A stretch of 64,000 nt of DNA from Lodderomyces elongisporus (Eukaryota > Ascomycota > Pichiomycetes > Serinales > Debaryomycetaceae): NCBI RefSeq assembly GCF_030384665.1, contig NC_083673.1:2241501-2305500 (forward strand). Direction: 5' to 3'. Below the pieces are notes generated by a model that was not told the DNA's origin, did not search any database, and was given only the letters and a program-made list of their open reading frames with translations. The translations under genes were made by a program, and so were the position numbers. This document shows, piece after piece, positions 2 to 47,711 of the stretch. Numbering within the stretch: position 1 is the stretch's first letter; every line of letters begins with the position of its first letter.

Positions 2-715
2 TTGGAATTGCTGCTGAGCTGGCCGGCATCAAACTCGCAAAGTGAAACAAATAGTGCTATTGCTCTGACTATTAGTGCTATTATGAAAACCTTGGAATCT
101 TTATCATCATCAGATCCCGACTTTAGAGAATATTTTTATGCAATGGGAAAATACAAGCTTACACAGGCTTTGCTATCGCATTTACAAAACTTAGACTCGA
201 GCAGTCCAAATTTGACAGGGTCATTGATACTTTTGAGGCACCAATTGAGATATGATGAAAGTATTGATATAAATGCAGTTTGGAATCTTTTTTTCACAAT
301 GTGTATTGACGTCAAGTTTGAAAGTGAGATGTTTATATTGTGGAACGAATCAATTTTAAGTATTAGTAATACGCGCTCTCGGGCATCATTGACAGGCATC
401 ATTTTGAAGTACTTGGAACTGGGTACAATGAAGCCTTTGTCATTACCCGTACTGACTATTTGCTTGAACTTTCTTGCCAAGGTTCTAATTGATGACGTGG
501 ACATTGATGAAGAGAAACTTTATCGATTGGACACAATATTTGGTAAATTATTCACCAAGAGCGACGCAATGTATCGAAAGCAGGCCACGATGTGTTATGG
601 CAGTTTATTGCGCAATAAGAATCTCACTACAGAGCTGATGCAAGCCTTGAATAAAATGAAAGCGAGATATAGTATGTCGCAACAGAGATTGATTGAGTTC
701 TACAGTCAAAAATAA
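2..715 (+). CDS. 3' end of an unidentified gene (C-terminal ~237 residues)
   Basis: The frame is open from the window edge to a TAA at 713-715, so the true start lies outside the window. The visible part looks like a helical repeat (ARM/HEAT-like) C-terminus: amphipathic helices with Leu/Ile spacing and a final basic helix ending in FYSQK. No catalytic motif is seen. It contains several in-frame CTG codons, including CTG-CTG at 14-19, which would read Ser in this clade. A CLASP/Stu1-type microtubule protein is one possibility from the overall character, but I cannot support a name. The downstream gene, STE12, is convergent, with 242 bp between stops. Confidence 0.75.
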   Translation: MELLLSWPASNSQSETNSAIALTISAIMKTLESLSSSDPDFREYFYAMGKYKLTQALLSHLQNLDSSSPNLTGSLILLRHQLRYDESIDINAVWNLFFTMCIDVKFESEMFILWNESILSISNTRSRASLTGIILKYLELGTMKPLSLPVLTICLNFLAKVLIDDVDIDEEKLYRLDTIFGKLFTKSDAMYRKQATMCYGSLLRNKNLTTELMQALNKMKARYSMSQQRLIEFYSQK

Positions 716-957
716 TCGTAGAAAGGAAACAAAAATTGTTAATGGGTATCTAAATAGTTCATTTTCTAAAATATATATAGATAAAAGAAATAAAATTAAT
801 TGTTTAAAATAAAACAAGTATTTGGTATAATTGAGGAAAGAAAATGCGTATCTAAAAACTTGCAAACTAGCGCAAATGAAGAGTATCGCTCACAATAGGG
901 AGGACAGGATAGATTTATGAGAAGAAAAAGAAGAAGATATGGTCAAAAGCCATTAGT

Positions 958-3189
958 TCATTGTCTTCCATGGTCTCTGTTATCGAGCCGGATTGTTTTG
1001 GACTTGACTACGTCACGTAAAGACGGACGATGCTTTGTGTCCTTTTCCTTGTAGTTCCTTTGCGAGAAACTACTGACGCCACTACTGGCTGGTACTGACG
1101 TCCCTTTGGTTACGCCATACTTCAGTGAATATTGTTGTTGTTGCTGTTGTTGTTGTTGCAACTGCCTCTTTTTCAACATCATTTTCGCACTTATTTGCTG
1201 TTGCCTAGTCATTTCCAGAAATGGGATTGTTTGAGGTTGTTGTTGTTGCTGTTGTTGTTGTGGTTGTTGTTGTTGTTGCTGCTGCTGTTGTGGTTGTGGT
1301 GGTTGATAGTGCTGGCGTTGCATGGGTATCATCATCGGCTGTTGGTTTACAGCTTGGAAGTTAAGCATGTCCTGATCGCTCATGAGCACATACGGTTGCA
1401 GCGGTTGGCCATAGCCCAACCCAGGGTCATACATCCCAAAAGCAGGTTGATTTGCAGCCGCAAGCGCTTGTGTTTGTGCATGTGTCTGAGCCTGAGCAGA
1501 CCAAAGGTCGTTTTCAGCGGGTAGCATGGAATTATAGGCAAGCGGAAGGTCGGTAGTGGTATAATATGGCATTTGATCGTACACCAAGGATTGTTGTTGT
1601 TGTTGTTGTTGTTGAGAAGGCAATTGGAATTGGGAAGAAGCTGCCCTCAATGAGGGGCGTCCTGATGCAAAATGTGTTTGTAGTTTAGCTGCTAATGGTT
1701 GTTGCTGTTGTTGTTGTTGTTGTTGCTGCTGCTGTAATTGTAGTTGTAGTTGTTGTAGGGAAGAGTTTACACCACCGGGTGGTTGCGAGAATCCTAGCAA
1801 GTCTTCAGCTGTAGGGTTCTGGAAAGCAAACATTTTTCCAGTAGATGATCTTGGTTGTAGTGAATTTGCGGATAAGGGAGGGGCCACCGGTGTTTTTAAT
1901 GGCTGTGTTTGCTCAATCAGGTACTCTTCGTTGAATGCTACTTGATTAGCAGTAGCAGACATTGGCTGTTGGCTATAGTAGCTGGAGTTTGGCATGAATA
2001 GTGTAGGGTCGATAAAATTGTTGAATGACCCACGCTCACCTGTACTTACACCTGTTGGTACAACATTTGGGTAGTAAACAGATTGCATATTTGGATCGAG
2101 TGTGATACAGCTATCTGTCGATTGACTGGTATCAAAATAGTCCAACGGAAAATCGTCCTCGTAGTCCGACCCAGCCCTGAACTGTTGCGGTGTTTCTTTG
2201 TTAAAGAAACTATATTTGTCCTCATCTTTATTGTAACCGTGATCCTTGGTCTTGGTTGTCAGAGCAATAGATGATCGTCCACTAATAGAATTTTTCCTAT
2301 CTATTTCTTCGCCACCAGCAGAATTAAGATTGGTATCATTAATATTTGCATCTAAACGGTTTTCCATGGATGATTTTACTGCTCTTTGTTTCTCTTTTCT
2401 TTGTTTTTCATTTTCCCTTTTCTCTGCCCCTTCTTCGTTATCTTCTTCTACTTCTTCTTCTTCTTCTTCTTCTTCCTCCTCCTCCTCATCTTCTTCGTCG
2501 TTTTCATTTATCCTAATCTGAGATTCCATGTGTTTCGTCAATTGATTGAACAAATTTGAGTTCTCGTCATATTGGAAGCTCAACGCCGGTTCTCGGTATG
2601 CCACCGTAGTGGGTTTTTGACCTAGTTTCTCCTTCTTCAAATCTCTTTCTAATGCATCTGCCATAAGTTTATCATGAGGCACATTGAACCAGAAAAACAC
2701 TTTTTGCTTCTTTTGAGTTCTTAAACACGAATTCTTGAACAAAAACTCCAAAAACTCCGATCTCGGTGGCTCCAAAATCGCATCAATATTGCATTTCAAG
2801 TTTCTCAAATCCGAAAAGATTCCTTCTTCAAACTTCTTACGATCAATGATTTTTCTTCCAAAGTGTTGAAACTTGTAGACAATGCATCTGACAATATCTG
2901 TTCCTGTTATGAAATACAAGTTGTTCCAGTAAACACAACTAACGAAACCTTCATCGTGATTTAAGTAATATCGTCTAATAACCTGATTTTCTTGCCAGTT
3001 TGCTGGTGCTGTAGCTAGGAAGAACTTGAGGTCTTCTATTAAACGTAACGATTCGTCAATCTCTTTCCGCGTCAGGTGCGTCTTGTTTGGTTCTGATGCT
3101 ATATTTTTTGCTGTCGCTGCTGGTGTGGCTGCTGCTGTAGTAGTTGGGTTTGTTGTAGTTGTAGTTGTAGTTGTTGTAGTTGTTGACAT
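958..3189 (-). CDS. STE12: Ste12-family transcription factor (Candida Cph1 orthologue)
   Basis: 743 residues, ATG at 3189. Residues about 39-195 are the STE homeodomain-like DNA-binding domain, nearly unchanged from yeast Ste12 (blocks such as RRYYLNHDEGFVSC, GRKI.DRKKFEEGIFSDLRNLKC and EPPRSEFLEFLFKNSC). It binds TGAAACA elements at the end of the pheromone/filamentation MAP-kinase cascade; in C. albicans Cph1 controls mating and hyphal growth. The N-terminus starts with about 11 Thr, a poly-Glu block lies near 228-250, and at least four poly-Gln tracts fill the C-terminal half. The filamentous-fungal C-terminal zinc fingers are absent, as in other yeasts. Its upstream region is unusually long (3.8 kb) and carries paired Ste12-type sites, suggesting autoregulation (inference). 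Confidence 0.96.
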   Translation of the reverse strand: MSTTTTTTTTTTTNPTTTAAATPAATAKNIASEPNKTHLTRKEIDESLRLIEDLKFFLATAPANWQENQVIRRYYLNHDEGFVSCVYWNNLYFITGTDIVRCIVYKFQHFGRKIIDRKKFEEGIFSDLRNLKCNIDAILEPPRSEFLEFLFKNSCLRTQKKQKVFFWFNVPHDKLMADALERDLKKEKLGQKPTTVAYREPALSFQYDENSNLFNQLTKHMESQIRINENDEEDEEEEEEEEEEEEVEEDNEEGAEKRENEKQRKEKQRAVKSSMENRLDANINDTNLNSAGGEEIDRKNSISGRSSIALTTKTKDHGYNKDEDKYSFFNKETPQQFRAGSDYEDDFPLDYFDTSQSTDSCITLDPNMQSVYYPNVVPTGVSTGERGSFNNFIDPTLFMPNSSYYSQQPMSATANQVAFNEEYLIEQTQPLKTPVAPPLSANSLQPRSSTGKMFAFQNPTAEDLLGFSQPPGGVNSSLQQLQLQLQQQQQQQQQQQQPLAAKLQTHFASGRPSLRAASSQFQLPSQQQQQQQQSLVYDQMPYYTTTDLPLAYNSMLPAENDLWSAQAQTHAQTQALAAANQPAFGMYDPGLGYGQPLQPYVLMSDQDMLNFQAVNQQPMMIPMQRQHYQPPQPQQQQQQQQQPQQQQQQQQPQTIPFLEMTRQQQISAKMMLKKRQLQQQQQQQQQYSLKYGVTKGTSVPASSGVSSFSQRNYKEKDTKHRPSLRDVVKSKTIRLDNRDHGRQ

Positions 3190-3490
3190 TTTTATTTATT
3201 TTTCAACGTACACGGAGTACAACAGGTTAAATGAGCGTAATGTAAGATGAAGCTGTTTCCAAACAGTACTAAAGTTGGTTTCAAAGTTGTTTTGGGTGTT
3301 GTATTTTGTTGATTTGAAGTATCTAGTGCTTTGGTCTGTCTGGGTGGTCTACAACAGATGGTGTGTGGTTCTAGACTCGGTCGGTTGACAATAAACAATA
3401 AGCAAAATTAAATATGTAAATAAATAAACAGAAAATAAAAAAAAAAAAAACAGAACAATACAATAATTGGAAAAACAGATGAGAATGTAG

Positions 3491-3603
3491 TGTTTCAGGT
3501 TGTTTTGTTTTGATGTTTTGGGAAAAATGTTGAAACTTGCGCGACACAGCAAAATTGTTGGCTGTTGCAAAGTTTCGTGTTTTATGTACGAGAACCTGAA
3601 ACA
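3491..3603. promoter_or_regulatory. Inverted pair of pheromone-response-type elements upstream of STE12
   Basis: TGTTTCAGGTT (3491-3501) and AACCTGAAACA (3593-3603) are perfect 11-bp reverse complements about 300-410 bp upstream of the STE12 ATG. Each contains the exact TGAAACA heptamer known for Ste12 binding. A near match (TGAAACT) lies at about 3530. Function is inferred from the motif and position. Confidence 0.6.
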
Positions 3604-6246
3604 AGATTTTTTTGTTTTTGTTTTTTTTTTTTATTTTTTTTTATATTTTATTTTTCCGTTTGTCTTCCGATGGGTATATAATCTTCCCCTTTTTTTCCCC
3701 AAATTGTGTATGGTCTTTATGTTTATATATGTTCGATTTGATCCACCTGTTTTGGTACTAATTTTTTTTCCTAATTGGAGATCAATGTAAAACCCAATCG
3801 ATAAGTAATGCTGGTAAGCCAGATTCTTTACTATTATTCTTTTTATACTGAATAGTGGTGATTTATACTCGTTTCGTTGTTGTTGTTGTTGTTGTTGTTG
3901 TTGTAGTTCGTTCCCCTTCTTTATTTTTTTTTGGCTCTCTCGACTTCGTTTGTCTATAATATTCACTAGTGTTTTATTACACCTTGAGCTGTTAATGTCA
4001 CGTGATGGTGATACAGTTGTAATTTTATTCTCCTGGCAAAAGCTCTATGCTGCTTCTATTATAAGCACAAGCACAAGATAGTATCAAGCTGTTAAGAACG
4101 TGGTTTTTTTAGGTGTTTAGCAAACTGTAATAGTTAGTTGCTAAAACCGAAACTAAGTTTCTGTCGGTAACAATCAGAAGATGGTGATAGGAAAATAGTG
4201 GAAAATTTAAAACTTAAAATTTTCATTAAAACAATAAATAAAAACACCAACTTGTAAACTTATACACAAACGATTCAATGGGTTTCAGCATCAACATATC
4301 TACGCTTATATGCATATACTTATATACTTGTATATTTATACAAAAGTGTAAGCGTCTTTTTGACAAGGTGACTTTAGCAGTCATGGATATTTTAGCATCA
4401 TCTGAATAATGGTCATCGGTCACCACTATTCACTTTCTTTGGCATTCCTATCATGATGTGTTCTTTTTTCCAAGAATTGTATGTGCTATAAAAAATTAAA
4501 TTGCAACATATTGCGTAGACCAGGGGTGGATGAAGGTTCCATTTTCACAAGACCTAGAAAACCAGATGGTGTGTGTATGTATTTGAGTATGAAAGAGAGA
4601 GAGAGAGAAATGTTGGCAGTATTAGTACTAGTATTATTATTATTATTATTATTAGTAGTAGTAGTACTTCTACTAGTAGTAATACAGCTAGAAAATACAA
4701 TTACGGTACTTGTTGGATACAATATTATATATGGAACGCCCTTGGATAGTTGCTTTTTCTACTAAAATATTAGATAAGTATTTTCATTAATTATGATTGT
4801 TGTGGGAGGCGTGGGGTGTGGGAAAGAGGACGAAAGGTTGTTAATTATTTCAAAAAAAAGAAAATATGAGGTTGTCAAAAGAATTAAACTTTGCATTCGC
4901 CGTGGTCTCAGATTTGATTGAACCTTAAAGAGCAAGATCGATTACAATCTATTTCGATACACTTTTCTTGAAATAAGACTAATCTAAACGAGGCACCAAC
5001 TAATACAAAAGAAACAAAGGTAAAGTAGAAGAATATATAAGAAAGAAACAACAAATGTTTATCATAATCTTTGAGGTTGTCTTTCTCCCTCCACCCACCC
5101 ACCCCACACACACACACACACACACACCAGTGCCATATCTAGTGTAAATTTGTTTCTTTTGCAGCATAAATGAATTTTAGACGCTGTCAAATGTTGTGTA
5201 CCTGGTCTGCATAAGAACTGAATGTAAGGAGGGTAAAAAATGAAAATAAAAAAAAAATTAAAATTAAAATAAAATAAATAATCAAATAAATGAATTTGCA
5301 AAAAAAAAGAAAAGAAAAGAGGATAAAAGGTAGATGAAAGAGGAGTTCTACAAGACAATATTCACCTAGTTCTTCATACGTCATAAGCTAGGACATGGTA
5401 CCTACATTAAGTGGCATGAACCGGCTTTGGAAGAGCATATTTGGAAAAGGCAGCCAGGACAAGAAAAACACAAATGCCAGTGAATAATTTTATGCCAGCC
5501 ATAAGATGCAAAAATACCACAACATTATTACTATAATAAGAGGAAAAATATTATTAACCAAGATAAAATTTTTATTTACTTATTGGTATTATACTAGAGT
5601 TCAATTTTACAAAGATACTCGTTGTGTATATACGCCTTGGAGCAATAAATATTAAAGATTACGATTAGAATGGAAATGTGGGGTAGAGGGGGGGAGAGGG
5701 GAGGAGGTGGGATGGACGATAAATTCTTTCAGCATATTTTATCCTTACAATAAAAGACTTGTTGCTTAAAGACTTTACTTTTAACAAATTTAGCATAATC
5801 AAAATATCGATTCTATCTTGCAATTTTTCAAATTCTTTTTTGTTTTGGTGTGTTGTTTTTTGTTTGCCATTTTGCCATTTTGCCATTTTGCCTTTTTGTC
5901 TTTTACTCATTTTGAGCCGTTCAGGTCACCTAGCCACAAAAGCCTAAACTGACGACGGATGGTAGTCAATTTAACCCCAAACCCTCGTCACGGAGAAGCT
6001 TTCTAAAGTACCGAAATGAACAAAAGTAACGTAAATTTGTATTTATAATACATAAAAAAAAATCTTTTCACTACTTTGAAATATTATGCACACATTTCGA
6101 ATCGTTTCTTAAGCTTAAAAGCTTATTCCAAGATTGCAAGAGTAAAGATACAGACATTCCTTTCTTTTCCTTTCTTTTCTTTTCTTTCCTTTTCTTTCCT
6201 TTTCTTTTCTTCGTTTTTTGTTTTTTGTTTTTCTTTTCTTCTTCTT

Positions 6247-42918: not shown

Positions 42919-43599
42919 TTATTTTTTTGACTTTGGTTTAGACACTCTTCCAGGGGTTTTCGACTTACTCTTGGTGTCTTTGCTCTTTGTTGTTCCCGAC
43001 GGTTTTCGATTCGATACCTTCTTGCTATTTACAGTCTTTGTAGTATCATTTGTTTTGGTGTATTTTGCAGCCAGCAGACTATCACTGGTGATACCTTTGT
43101 TTGATTGTTCTTTCCTTGTCGTGCCATCCCTGGTTTCTTCCTCGTTATCAAATTTTGTATGTGTTCCTTGGAAGCTTTTCGTGCTTATTGCAGGTCGCGT
43201 GTCGGTCAATGTACTTTCAGCACCGTTCTTCATCCCCAATGTTTGCGTTATAAACTCTTTGGCTTTTCTCTTTTCATCTTCTTCCTTCTGCTTCATTTCA
43301 TCATCTAAATTTTGATCTAGTTTTTTGGCTCGCATCATGAAGTTCTTCACACGTGCCAACTCGTTCTTTATAGGATGCTCGTCAGTGTTTACACCAATAG
43401 TTTTAAGATATGAAAATATTGTTGATACTAGCACATATTGGAAATTGTTTAAAAATTGGATCTTGTCTTTAGCAGTTTCTTGTTGTGCGAGATGCTCGTC
43501 TAGCGACTTCGATAGTAATAACTCCAAGGTGGGCTCATACTGTAAAATTGACAGATCTAGTGACTTTAAAAAGAGTTTTATGTTTTCGGTATTATCCAT
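42919..43599 (-). CDS. LRP1: Lrp1/Rrp47, nuclear exosome cofactor (C1D family)
   Basis: 226 residues, ATG at 43599. The N-terminal ~110 residues form the Sas10/C1D helical domain (NNFQYVLVSTIFSYLKTIGVNTDEHPIKNELARVKNFMMRAKKL is typical, including the P.K.EL.R...Y/F..K pattern). The rest is a Lys/Ser/Thr-rich basic tail that binds RNA in yeast Rrp47. Lrp1 partners with Rrp6 in 3' processing of 5.8S rRNA, snRNAs and snoRNAs. It is divergent from RRP17, another rRNA-processing gene, with 270 bp between starts. Confidence 0.92.
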   Translation of the reverse strand: MDNTENIKLFLKSLDLSILQYEPTLELLLSKSLDEHLAQQETAKDKIQFLNNFQYVLVSTIFSYLKTIGVNTDEHPIKNELARVKNFMMRAKKLDQNLDDEMKQKEEDEKRKAKEFITQTLGMKNGAESTLTDTRPAISTKSFQGTHTKFDNEEETRDGTTRKEQSNKGITSDSLLAAKYTKTNDTTKTVNSKKVSNRKPSGTTKSKDTKSKSKTPGRVSKPKSKK

Positions 43600-43682
43600 T
43601 TTTGAAGTGTCTTTTTGATTGAAATGAAAAGCAAAGTTTTGGGACCTTCAAATTATAAAAGATGTGAATGGAGAAAACTGTC

Positions 43683-43688
43683 GATGAG
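43683..43688. promoter_or_regulatory. PAC element (GATGAG) in the LRP1-RRP17 divergent promoter
   Basis: CGATGAG at 43682-43688, 84 bp from the LRP1 start and 182 bp from the RRP17 start. PAC (GATGAG) marks yeast ribosome-biogenesis promoters. One site could serve both genes; no clear RRPE partner was seen. Confidence 0.55.
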
Positions 43689-43869
43689 TCTAGGATTTTG
43701 CGCTTTTTCTCTATACATTGTTTGTTTTTTTTTTTCCTTTCTCTACCGAGCTGTTTCTAGCACTTTTCAATTTTGCGATACAATTCATCTCTTTTCCTGC
43801 CCATCTCGTGTAATATTCAATCCTTATAATTTACAAATCAAACCACCAACAGCACTCTATCACAATATA

Positions 43870-44688
43870 ATGGTAAGACACAATAGGGATATACTTACTG
43901 GAGGTAAGAATTATGCTCAAAGGCAGGCCAAAAAACATTTGGTGGATGAAGTCACTTTTGACAAAGAAAAACGTCATGAGTACCTTACAGGATTCCACAA
44001 GCGAAAACTTCAGAGACAGAAAAAAGCACAAGAGTACAACAAGGAGCAGGAAAGGCTAGCCAAGATTGCAGAAAGAAAAGAGCTACGTGATGAAAGAAAG
44101 CGAGATTTGGAGAACCAATTGGCCGAATTCAAAGAGAAAGCTAAGGAGATAGCTGCTATTAATGGAGATCTAGCTGTGTCTGATGATGAAGAGGAGGAGG
44201 AGGAGGAAGGGGAGGAGGTTAAGGGAGAACGGATAGAAACGGGTGAGAATGATGAACCTGGGGAATGGAATGGATTTAACGAAGGAGAAGCGGAAGCGAA
44301 TGGTGAAACAAAGTCAAGCAATGGTTTCCTGTCAAGACCGGTGAAAGGAATATTGCATCATACTGAGGTTTACGATCCTGTTGGTAATGGAGGAAACGTT
44401 TTGCTTGATGATGAAACTACAGTAACAATTGAGTCGATTGAAAATCCAAACTTCAGCAACGTGCCTCTCAAGGAGGTTGCAAAGGCAAATAGAGTTGATC
44501 TAGAGAAATCCGAGGAAATACTCGAAAAATCTATAAAGAGAGCAAAGGATTATGCTGTATTGTGTGGAGTTGCTAAGCCTACGAAGGAAAAGAAACCAAA
44601 AAAGAAGTTTAGGTATTTGAGTAAGGCGGAGCGTCGAGAAAACACAAGAAAGGAGAAGATGAAGGGAAAGCTCCGAGGTAAGAAGTAA
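43870..44688 (+). CDS. RRP17: Rrp17/Nop25-type nucleolar 5'-3' exonuclease
   Basis: 272 residues from the ATG at 43870; the frame is open 85 codons upstream but passes through the divergent promoter. The family signature begins at once: RDILTGGKNYAQRQAKKHLVDEVTFDKEKRHEYLTGFHKRKLQRQKKAQEYNKEQER, nearly identical to yeast Rrp17. An acidic Glu run lies near 103-115, and the C-terminal block KPTKEKKPKKKFRYLSKAERRENTRKEKMKGKLRGKK is a basic nucleolar-type tail. Rrp17 trims 5' ends of 5.8S and 25S precursors. It is slightly longer than the 235-residue S. cerevisiae protein. Confidence 0.95.
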   Translation: MVRHNRDILTGGKNYAQRQAKKHLVDEVTFDKEKRHEYLTGFHKRKLQRQKKAQEYNKEQERLAKIAERKELRDERKRDLENQLAEFKEKAKEIAAINGDLAVSDDEEEEEEEGEEVKGERIETGENDEPGEWNGFNEGEAEANGETKSSNGFLSRPVKGILHHTEVYDPVGNGGNVLLDDETTVTIESIENPNFSNVPLKEVAKANRVDLEKSEEILEKSIKRAKDYAVLCGVAKPTKEKKPKKKFRYLSKAERRENTRKEKMKGKLRGKK

Positions 44689-45083
44689 TCTCTTTGGTAA
44701 GACTGATTTGAAGTTATGTATATCTGTTATATGTTTAACAAACGTTGTATTTCAATTGTCAGGCATGATTGTTTCATTTTGGCTTATTTGAAATGAACTA
44801 TAATGGACTTTTTAATATAAACCATTGTAGAGGAATCTTAAACTACAATTTTTTCTTACACTATGTCTAGAAACCATTTGGTAGCTCATCTCGCAACAGT
44901 TTTCTCAGACAAAATTTCAAGATGAGATAATTCCACCATGGAGAGAACATAAGTACATAAAAAAAAACTTTCGGTTTGTTCTAATTTCTTTTTCCTTTTC
45001 ACTTTTTTTTTTCTTCTTCTTCTTCTTCTTTTTCAGCATCCTCTCAACAACATCACCATCAAAGATGTATTTTTTTTTCAATT

Positions 45084-45312
45084 GTATGTTTCTTTATTTG
45101 CTTTCATTGAGCTTCATATAAGCACAAGCTGGACATATATATATAATGATGACAACGTTGTCGCCCCAAACGGAGGATCCTTTTCAGGACGCTGACCGAT
45201 TCGATAAATTAGCCAAACACTGAAAATTCTGACTTTTATTATATTCCAGTATTGATTGAAGGGAGAGCAATTCTTTTTTTTTACGTGGATCAAGTACTAA
45301 CAATCGTTTTAG
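45084..45312 (+). other. Canonical spliceosomal intron in an apparently non-coding transcript
   Basis: 5' splice site GTATGT at 45084-45089, branch point TACTAAC at 45295-45301, and first AG at 45311-45312 (a second at 45316-45317). These are the strict yeast consensus sequences. Exon 1 has one ATG (45065), which after splicing meets a stop within 11 codons with either AG. The only other open exon-2 frame is 20-odd codons (ATG 45327 or so). So the spliced product looks non-coding, and the intron carries the snoRNA below. Confidence 0.8.
45140..45240 (+). ncRNA. SNR67: C/D box snoRNA, snR67 homologue, intron-encoded
   Basis: Box C is ATGATGA (45146-45152) and box D is CTGA (45229-45232), 87 nt overall. 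The 12 nt before box D (45217-45228) pair with 25S rRNA GAUUUUCAGUGU (one G-U pair); the fifth nucleotide from box D (A45224) falls on U2724. A second guide (45159-45168, TGTCGCCCCA) pairs over 10 nt with the P-loop UGGGGCGGCA; with a D' box CGGA at 45171-45174, the fifth nucleotide (C45166) falls on G2619. Yeast snR67 directs exactly Gm2619 and Um2724. The distances to splice site (62 nt) and branch point (about 65 nt) fit an intronic snoRNA. Ends are approximate; rRNA sequence was recalled, not searched. Confidence 0.88.
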
Positions 45313-46406
45313 CTTAGTTAAGAAAAATGAATAAGTTGAAGTTGAGTGTTTCTGTTTTTGTACACAGCCTTAGCTGTTGTCATTGCCAATAGCACTCAGT
45401 TTTCTGTTATTTTTTTGTCTCTCTTTCTTTAACATGTTCATGGTATCGAATGGGTCTGATTGCTGCTGCGTTATGCATATACTTGTTTACATTTTTTTGT
45501 CTTCTTTTTTTTCGTTTTTTTGTCTTGATTTTTCATTGAATCATATTCCAAATCGTTGTGCCTTGTTTCGATTTTTTTCTCTCGGGCTAATGATGTTTTC
45601 CATGCTAATCATGAATGTTTCTGATTATCAACATACCTAAATCGCGTACTTGCATAAAAAATGGAAGGCGCGTCTGAAGCTTTGAAGAAAGTATGAGAAT
45701 GAAGAGATTGAAACGAAAATCGAAATCGAAAGAAAAAAAAGTGCAAACACTGTCTTGTATTCATCGTGCATGAATACAGGATGAGCTGTCAGAATCATTT
45801 GATTACGGTGAAGTACTAAGAATAGGAAAAGAGCTAGAGTTAGAGCTAGAGCTAGAGATAGGGCTGGTTGTGTGGATGATATGTTACTTTTTTGTTTTAT
45901 GACATGGCTTAATGCTTAACTTTGCAAAGGTTTTTGTTTTTGAGGCGATCTCAACCGAGCTGGTTAGTTCCTATAATTATTTTTGTAAAGTAAATAGTAG
46001 TCATTACAATACCCTTGATTCAAAAATTTTTATGCAGAGGCAGCTTATGAAGCAATCGTATTTATCTAGGATGGACTTTTCTGTCTCTTTCTCAATGTTT
46101 TTCCTCCTTTCCTGAATTTTGGCCCTTATTCGTACCTCTTACTTCATGGTGGCACGCACGCGATCATCATTCGAAATGAAAAATTACACACACACACACA
46201 CTTATATATATATATATATATATTTATTTGTATACACAACTTTGTTCTCTCTTTTGGAAACTAAACCCACCGAGGAAAAATTTAAACGACAAAATAGACT
46301 GAGAACAAGTGTTTATATATATATATATACATATATATTGTTGTACTTTTTGCAACTGTTTTCTTTTCTTCAGGAACATCTTTGTCAAATCCGTATTTTC
46401 TTGAAA

Positions 46407-47711
46407 ATGGATGAGCAGTCTGGGGAGACTGCGGCGATCTTATTCAATGATCTTATTCCTCTACCTTTCCGCATCTTACTATTAATTCAATTTCTACTAC
46501 TGTTATGGTTACTATTGAATATCATTTTATACAATTTTTCATCGCTCAATGTTCTACATTTGATTAACTTGTCCTATTCTCAACACAATTACACACAATT
46601 AGATCATCTGGCTCCTACAACATTTGGTGAATTTGCAACTACAATACCTGCCGACTTACTGGAAAACGCTAGGTTGATCAAAGGTATATGGCTGAATCTT
46701 AAACGAATCTCGTTAGTCAATTTCATCAGTTGGTTTGCATTCAAAGCTGTCAAGTGGTACAACAAGGATTTGACATTGTTGTATTATAGTATCCCAGTTG
46801 TGCTGTTTGCATATGTGTTTCACAGGTTGTTTTATGCAAATGTCAACACTGCAGGGCAAGTACGAGTATACACTACGATGAAGCGCGTCTTGCAAGGGGG
46901 AATAAATTCCTTGAGCATGAGAACCAATGACATATTGATCAGTGACTCTTTAGTCTCGGTGTCTAAAGTCTTGAATGATTTTGGATTATTCATTTGGAAC
47001 TATTATGTTAGTGAGTCGATAGCATACAACTATCAATTAGAATTTTTGATCTTGTGCATCCCAACTTTTATCAGAATTAAGCAATGTTGGTTCGAGTACT
47101 CGTCAACTGGCAAAACCCAGCACATGCTAAATTTAATCAAGTACTCCACGGCGTTTGGCCCACTTCTAATCAATGCATTAATCAAGCATACATTATTGAG
47201 ATCAAGTGACGAAGATAGACAATCGGGAGCATTGATTCAGCAGTTGACCAAGCTCAATGATTGGTGGTATTTCCTTTCGGCATTGAACTCGACCTATTCA
47301 TTTATATGGGACATAATGATGGATTGGCATTTACAACTCTTCAACAAGCTCTTTAACCCAAGAGAGAGATTCACGATTCTTAGACCGCATAAGGCATTTC
47401 CAGACTATATATATCTAATAGCGATGAGCATTGATTTTTTGTTTAGGTATATATGGGTGTTAAAACTATTTATTATCAATGAAGAATTGAGGTTGAGCTC
47501 GCAAATCAAGTTTCTTCACGTATTTTCCACATTCTTGTTTGGATACGATGCATACTCATTTGGGTATGTTATTATCGAGGTGTTGGAAATTTTTAGACGC
47601 TGGGTGTGGTGTTTTGTAAAACTAGAAAGTGATTGGATCAAGGTGAGGTATGAAGAGCCTAGAGAATTCGAATTAAGCGGGATGAACGAGATGGGTAAAG
47701 GTCTTACATAG
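46407..47711 (+). CDS. ERD1: Erd1, EXS-domain Golgi membrane protein
   Basis: 434 residues from the ATG at 46407; the upstream frame runs through CA/TA repeats and is not used. It is multi-spanning: hydrophobic segments near 20-45, 110-140, and several in the C-terminal half. The C-terminal EXS domain shows LCIPTFIRIKQCWFEY, LIKYSTAFGP, WDIMMDWHLQLF, FLFRYIWVLKLF and EIFRRWVWCFVKLESDW, as in Erd1/Syg1/Xpr1 proteins. Yeast Erd1 is needed to retain HDEL proteins and glycosyltransferases in ER/Golgi and recovers phosphate produced by glycosylation in the Golgi lumen. It lacks an SPX domain, which separates it from Syg1. Confidence 0.92.
   Translation: MDEQSGETAAILFNDLIPLPFRILLLIQFLLLLWLLLNIILYNFSSLNVLHLINLSYSQHNYTQLDHLAPTTFGEFATTIPADLLENARLIKGIWLNLKRISLVNFISWFAFKAVKWYNKDLTLLYYSIPVVLFAYVFHRLFYANVNTAGQVRVYTTMKRVLQGGINSLSMRTNDILISDSLVSVSKVLNDFGLFIWNYYVSESIAYNYQLEFLILCIPTFIRIKQCWFEYSSTGKTQHMLNLIKYSTAFGPLLINALIKHTLLRSSDEDRQSGALIQQLTKLNDWWYFLSALNSTYSFIWDIMMDWHLQLFNKLFNPRERFTILRPHKAFPDYIYLIAMSIDFLFRYIWVLKLFIINEELRLSSQIKFLHVFSTFLFGYDAYSFGYVIIEVLEIFRRWVWCFVKLESDWIKVRYEEPREFELSGMNEMGKGLT

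Follow-up and report, generated by a model that had tools for sequence, protein, structure and literature searches.

The 64,000-nucleotide stretch of Lodderomyces elongisporus DNA analyzed here (the window) contains, between two reading frames of the forward strand, a small predicted intron that carries a box C/D small nucleolar RNA (snoRNA) of the snR67 family. The upstream neighbor is a reading frame of the Nop25 family (RRP17-like; positions 43615 to 44688, + strand), while downstream lies an EXS-family reading frame (46119 to 47711, + strand) whose nearest named relatives, at 64 to 65% identity, belong to Candida oxycetoniae, C. margitis, C. theae, and Lodderomyces beijingensis, species that the taxonomy places in Lodderomyces, and are mostly called ERD1. 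The upstream stop codon lies about 395 nt before the intron, and a further stretch of about 1,094 nt leads from the intron to the ATG of ERD1. RRP17 and ERD1, which we take to be near neighbors in S. cerevisiae too (YDR412W and YDR414C), have the same orientation here, with the snR67 host between them. The RRP17-like gene in turn adjoins a Sas10/Utp3/C1D-family frame on the - strand (42919 to 43599), so that two genes of RNA-processing type lie on that side of the host.

To identify the RNA, we scanned the whole window with the covariance models of 4227 Rfam families. The sole match above the gathering score was to RF01177 (snR67), at positions 45142 to 45234 of the + strand; it spans the model over its full length (1 to 83 of 83) and its score of 84.5 bits (E = 3.7e-15) clearly exceeds the cut-off, which is 55. 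The first-pass annotation of this DNA had named the RNA snR67 and had proposed a search of this kind for the interval, and the result bears the identification out. A permissive Rfam scan of the host region (44600 to 46500) returned, besides snR67, three matches, all far below their cut-offs.

Boxes C and D lie near the two ends of the match, as befits a box C/D snoRNA. Box C (TGATGA, 45147 to 45152) coincides with the UGAUGA of the family consensus, and box D (CTGA, 45229 to 45232) is located by both the Rfam alignment and the sequence. Between them we read the CGGA at 45171 to 45174 as box D', the family consensus likewise having CGGA there, and the TGACCGA at 45193 to 45199, which is conserved in the Rfam alignment, is probably box C'. 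Box C, guide 1, box D', guide 2, and box D are all kept in the RF01177 alignment, in which the D'-to-C' interval, longer than in the consensus, is the most visible deviation. A terminal stem joining the ends of snR67 was not significant (z = -0.40; 66 of 200 shuffled sequences were at least as stable), and the folding of the whole intron showed no excess over chance (z = 0.47; 134 of 200 shuffled versions folded equally well or better).

We next considered the two guides. As a pairing reference we used 240 nt of the 25S rRNA of S. cerevisiae, not the organism's own 25S. Guide 1 (45159 to 45168, + strand) forms 10 pairs with this stretch around G2619, one of them G-U; the pairs occupy positions 3 to 12 counted from box D', leaving two unpaired nucleotides before the box. 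Guide 2 (45217 to 45228, + strand) forms 12 pairs around U2724, again with one G-U. The partners at position +5 are a G for the D' guide and a U for the D guide, and they are 105 nt apart in the reference stretch. The published targets of snR67, Gm2619 and Um2724, are likewise 105 apart (PMC8307265, PMC5199042); one table numbers the first of them Gm2616 instead (PMC3511168). The assertion of the first-pass annotation that both guides match these targets at box+5 is thus supported for both registers, as judged against the S. cerevisiae reference sequence.

Long pairing runs are less telling. Among 20,000 random 18-mers from the window, runs of at least 10 pairs with the 240-nt target occurred in 1557 (7.8%) and runs of at least 12 in 292 (1.5%). 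The CTGA at 45220, a decoy, likewise gives a run of 10 pairs, two of them G-U. The argument therefore rests on the register, the exact spacing of 105 nt, and the Rfam score, and not on pairing length alone. In the rDNA unit that we fetched (L004), positions 502 to 5501 read N, which is why the pairing is given against the S. cerevisiae stretch. Two gapped patterns of the target pair, the 240-nt reference stretch, and a 41-nt pattern with up to three mismatches all had no match in the assembled genome; a gapped pattern likewise had none in viral_contigs, nor had the 240-nt stretch in plasmids. The rDNA array occupies positions 394625 to 433204 of contig 3, with neighboring 5S genes 7.7 kb apart and, in the fetched unit, on the strand opposite to 18S.

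The snR67 match lies inside a predicted spliceosomal intron of 229 nt (45084 to 45312, + strand), with the donor GTATGT at 45084 to 45089, the branch-point sequence TACTAAC at 45295 to 45301, 61 nt past the match, and the acceptor TAG at 45310 to 45312. The strict-consensus intron described by the first-pass annotation is therefore present at the level of sequence signals, and it is the only strict set in the window when both strands are considered and the donor is required to lie within 800 nt of the branch point. By themselves the signals are unremarkable, since at least one set was found in 33% of 200 simulated 64-kb single strands (mean, 0.435). We then took their placement into account. 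Of 20,000 simulations with local base composition, 5 produced a set that encloses a fixed 93-nt block and lies within 300 nt of it on either side. Flanks of this type were found in the window at 12 of 12,660 placements, all 12 of them due to the snR67 intron itself. When six fetched loci were added to the window, making seven sequences, they were found at 26 of 3203 placements, a background that is not clean because it takes in this intron and, through the overlap of L005 and L009, cluster I twice.

Similar introns are found elsewhere in the genome. A genome-wide Rfam search located snR73 on contig 5 (one match), and a scan of 8 kb there revealed snR75, snR76, and snR77 adjoining it. Four of the seven members that the literature assigns to cluster I were thus recovered, and the remaining three gave no match above the gathering score in the 8 kb scanned. 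When a looser branch-point sequence was allowed for these comparators, snR77, snR76, and snR75 were each found to be flanked by GTATGT and a branch point (TACTAAC, TACTAAC, and AACTAAC, respectively). The implied introns measure 321, 267, and 195 nt, compared with 229 nt for snR67, and the snoRNAs end 120, 67, and 57 nt before the branch point, compared with 61 nt for snR67. No such intron was seen near snR73. We also looked for snR53, with which a non-intronic snR67 is presumably paired in S. cerevisiae, as the first-pass annotation had put it. Its family (RF00338) had no match above the gathering score in the 64-kb window. A genome search for it also gave no match, with 63 of 3697 candidates scored, and is uninformative, the control being likewise unmatched anywhere; the same holds for the genome searches for snR69 (no match, 52 of 3277 candidates scored, control unmatched) and snR62 (no match, 61 of 7226 candidates scored, control unmatched).

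These observations bear on how, and whether, snR67 is made from this locus. It might be released without splicing from an independent transcript, the intron signals being decayed or fortuitous. In S. cerevisiae and its close relatives, the three clusters analyzed do derive from unspliced transcripts (PMC3596301), and intron signals alone do arise by chance in a window of 64 kb. Here, however, donor, branch point, and acceptor are all preserved around the snoRNA, an arrangement that was rare in our simulations (5 of 20,000), and the build resembles that of the three cluster I introns of the same genome, so that we regard an unspliced origin as very improbable. That the copy is an unexpressed pseudogene, with a working snR67 elsewhere, is scarcely credible, and no observation spoke in favor of it. 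Every box and both guides are intact, and when the organism's own genome (16,086,460 bases in 8 contigs) was searched with RF01177, this locus was the single reported match, with 56 of the 905 first-look candidates scored. The intact second snR67 that, according to the first-pass annotation, would have spoken against its reading was accordingly not among the reported matches. Furthermore, apart from the locus itself, a DNA search with positions 44880 to 45800 hit only four other places, each through a partial match to the pyrimidine tract.

As to the host, the likeliest candidate is a stand-alone non-coding RNA transcribed between the RRP17-like gene and ERD1. The first-pass annotation had called it apparently non-coding and had put the longest protein of its exons at about 11 to 20 codons. 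The first of these statements is likely to hold. The second depends on the ends of the transcript: the first ATG frame of at least 18 codons after the intron, at 45327, has 21 codons, and an exon 2 extended to ERD1 would include frames of up to 68 codons, the start being assumed at 44990. Alternatively, the intron could belong to the untranslated region (UTR) of a neighboring gene. Indeed, both neighbors are on the + strand, and UTR introns are reported as snoRNA hosts in these yeasts, in the 3' UTR for snR58 and LSU-C2809 and in the 5' UTR for snR79 (Donovan et al., PMC5033589). Against a UTR host stand the gaps of about 395 nt upstream and about 1,094 nt to the ERD1 ATG, possible though weak promoter motifs in the upstream gap, and the report that most snoRNAs of these species come from transcripts, mono- or polycistronic, that lack coding potential (PMC5033589). 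We thus consider a UTR host unlikely.

The possible promoter motifs are CTCATC (44885), AAAATTT (44911), and GATGAG (44921), which together span positions 44885 to 44926 of the + strand. We take them to resemble, weakly, the PAC and RRPE elements found in promoters of the ribosome-biogenesis type. Since the window has two more clusters of this kind, reading these motifs as a promoter is suggestive only. Tbf1-like motifs (ACCCTA, TAGGGT, and TTAGGG) were absent from positions 44689 to 45083. The pyrimidine tract, at 44985 to 45044, precedes exon 1 and has its partial matches at four other places in the genome, at 83 to 92% over about 47 to 60 nt. Two of these places (L007 and L008) were scanned and held no Rfam RNA above the gathering score. 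The tract is probably a low-complexity leader or promoter sequence.

Taken together, the family match, the boxes, the guide registers and their 105-nt spacing on the S. cerevisiae 25S stretch, the intron signals, the single reported genome match (56 of 905 candidates scored), the similar introns around snR77, snR76, and snR75, and the pattern published for L. elongisporus and its relatives make us highly confident that this locus is the snR67 gene of the organism, probably its sole copy, and that it encodes an intron-processed guide for G2619 and U2724, most likely in a stand-alone host. From these features we infer transcription, splicing, processing, and methylation as follows. RNA polymerase II would transcribe the host RNA, most likely a stand-alone non-coding one, between the Nop25/RRP17-like gene and ERD1, and the spliceosome would excise the 229-nt intron. 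The lariat would then be debranched and trimmed back by exonucleases to the box C/D particle containing snR67. This particle would direct 2'-O-methylation of 25S G2619, in the P-loop, through the D' guide and of U2724 through the D guide. Two rRNA methylations, one of them in the P-loop, would hence depend on the splicing of one small intron.

The first-pass annotation had seen a surprising change of host in this locus, a view that the literature does not sustain. Intronic C/D snoRNAs in non-coding hosts are common in the clade (PMC5033589, PMC3596301), and published work interprets their absence from Saccharomyces as a loss, so that the intronic state is not the novelty. In line with this, 323 of the 460 snoRNAs of three clusters across fungi were predicted to be intronic, and lost splice signals are given as the cause of the non-intronic state in S. 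cerevisiae (Luo et al. 2013, PMC3596301); in PMC5033589, Mitrovich et al. are the source named for C. albicans and for a progressive loss of introns in Saccharomycotina. In L. elongisporus itself, 36 of 69 snoRNAs are intronic, and 48 C/D snoRNAs were annotated, RNA-seq data (SRP077251 for that study) being used as an aid (Donovan et al. 2016, PMC5033589). As only snR39 and snR59 are named there as missing C/D orthologs, snR67 is implied in that set, although it goes unnamed in the main text. The locus is thus very probably annotated already. We found no naming of snR67 as intronic in this clade in the available parts of the literature; it is unmentioned in those of PMC2926782, PMC12309372, and PMC5389607, and nothing on it was found in those of PMC8476143.

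An intron-borne C/D snoRNA in a non-coding host is certainly of a known kind, and the snR67 locus looks like an ordinary arrangement for these yeasts. Little is gained from it beyond annotation, apart from a clean CTG-clade example of an intronic C/D snoRNA, whereas Saccharomyces, according to the literature, lost such introns (PMC3596301, PMC5033589). A more particular history, in which snR67 and its single intron were relocated together to a host of their own with no other snoRNA, beside a ribosome-biogenesis gene and under a promoter of ribosome-biogenesis type, seems to us improbable; if true, it would add a new case to the "excised and inserted" relocations described for other snoRNA introns (PMC3596301).

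Compared with known systems, the locus shares with S. cerevisiae snR67 (RF01177) the full-length family match, boxes C, D' (CGGA), and D, and both guides at the published registers, but it differs in its predicted intron and in a D'-to-C' stretch longer than the consensus. With the intronic snoRNAs described in C. parapsilosis, C. orthopsilosis, L. elongisporus, and C. albicans (PMC5033589), it has in common the GTATGT and TACTAAC signals, the C/D class, and a host that probably lacks a long frame; apart from snR67 being unnamed in the main text of that study, we saw no difference. The fungal clusters I to III (PMC3596301), whose species set includes L. elongisporus, similarly consist of intron-borne C/D snoRNAs in hosts of little coding potential. 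Unlike the present locus, where one snoRNA was found, those hosts carry several snoRNAs and are without snR67. Finally, Nc CD49 of N. crassa, which has the Um target of snR67, is listed as intronic and guides that target from box D, as predicted here; its D' guide, however, is that of snR54 and not the Gm2619 guide (PMC2780460).
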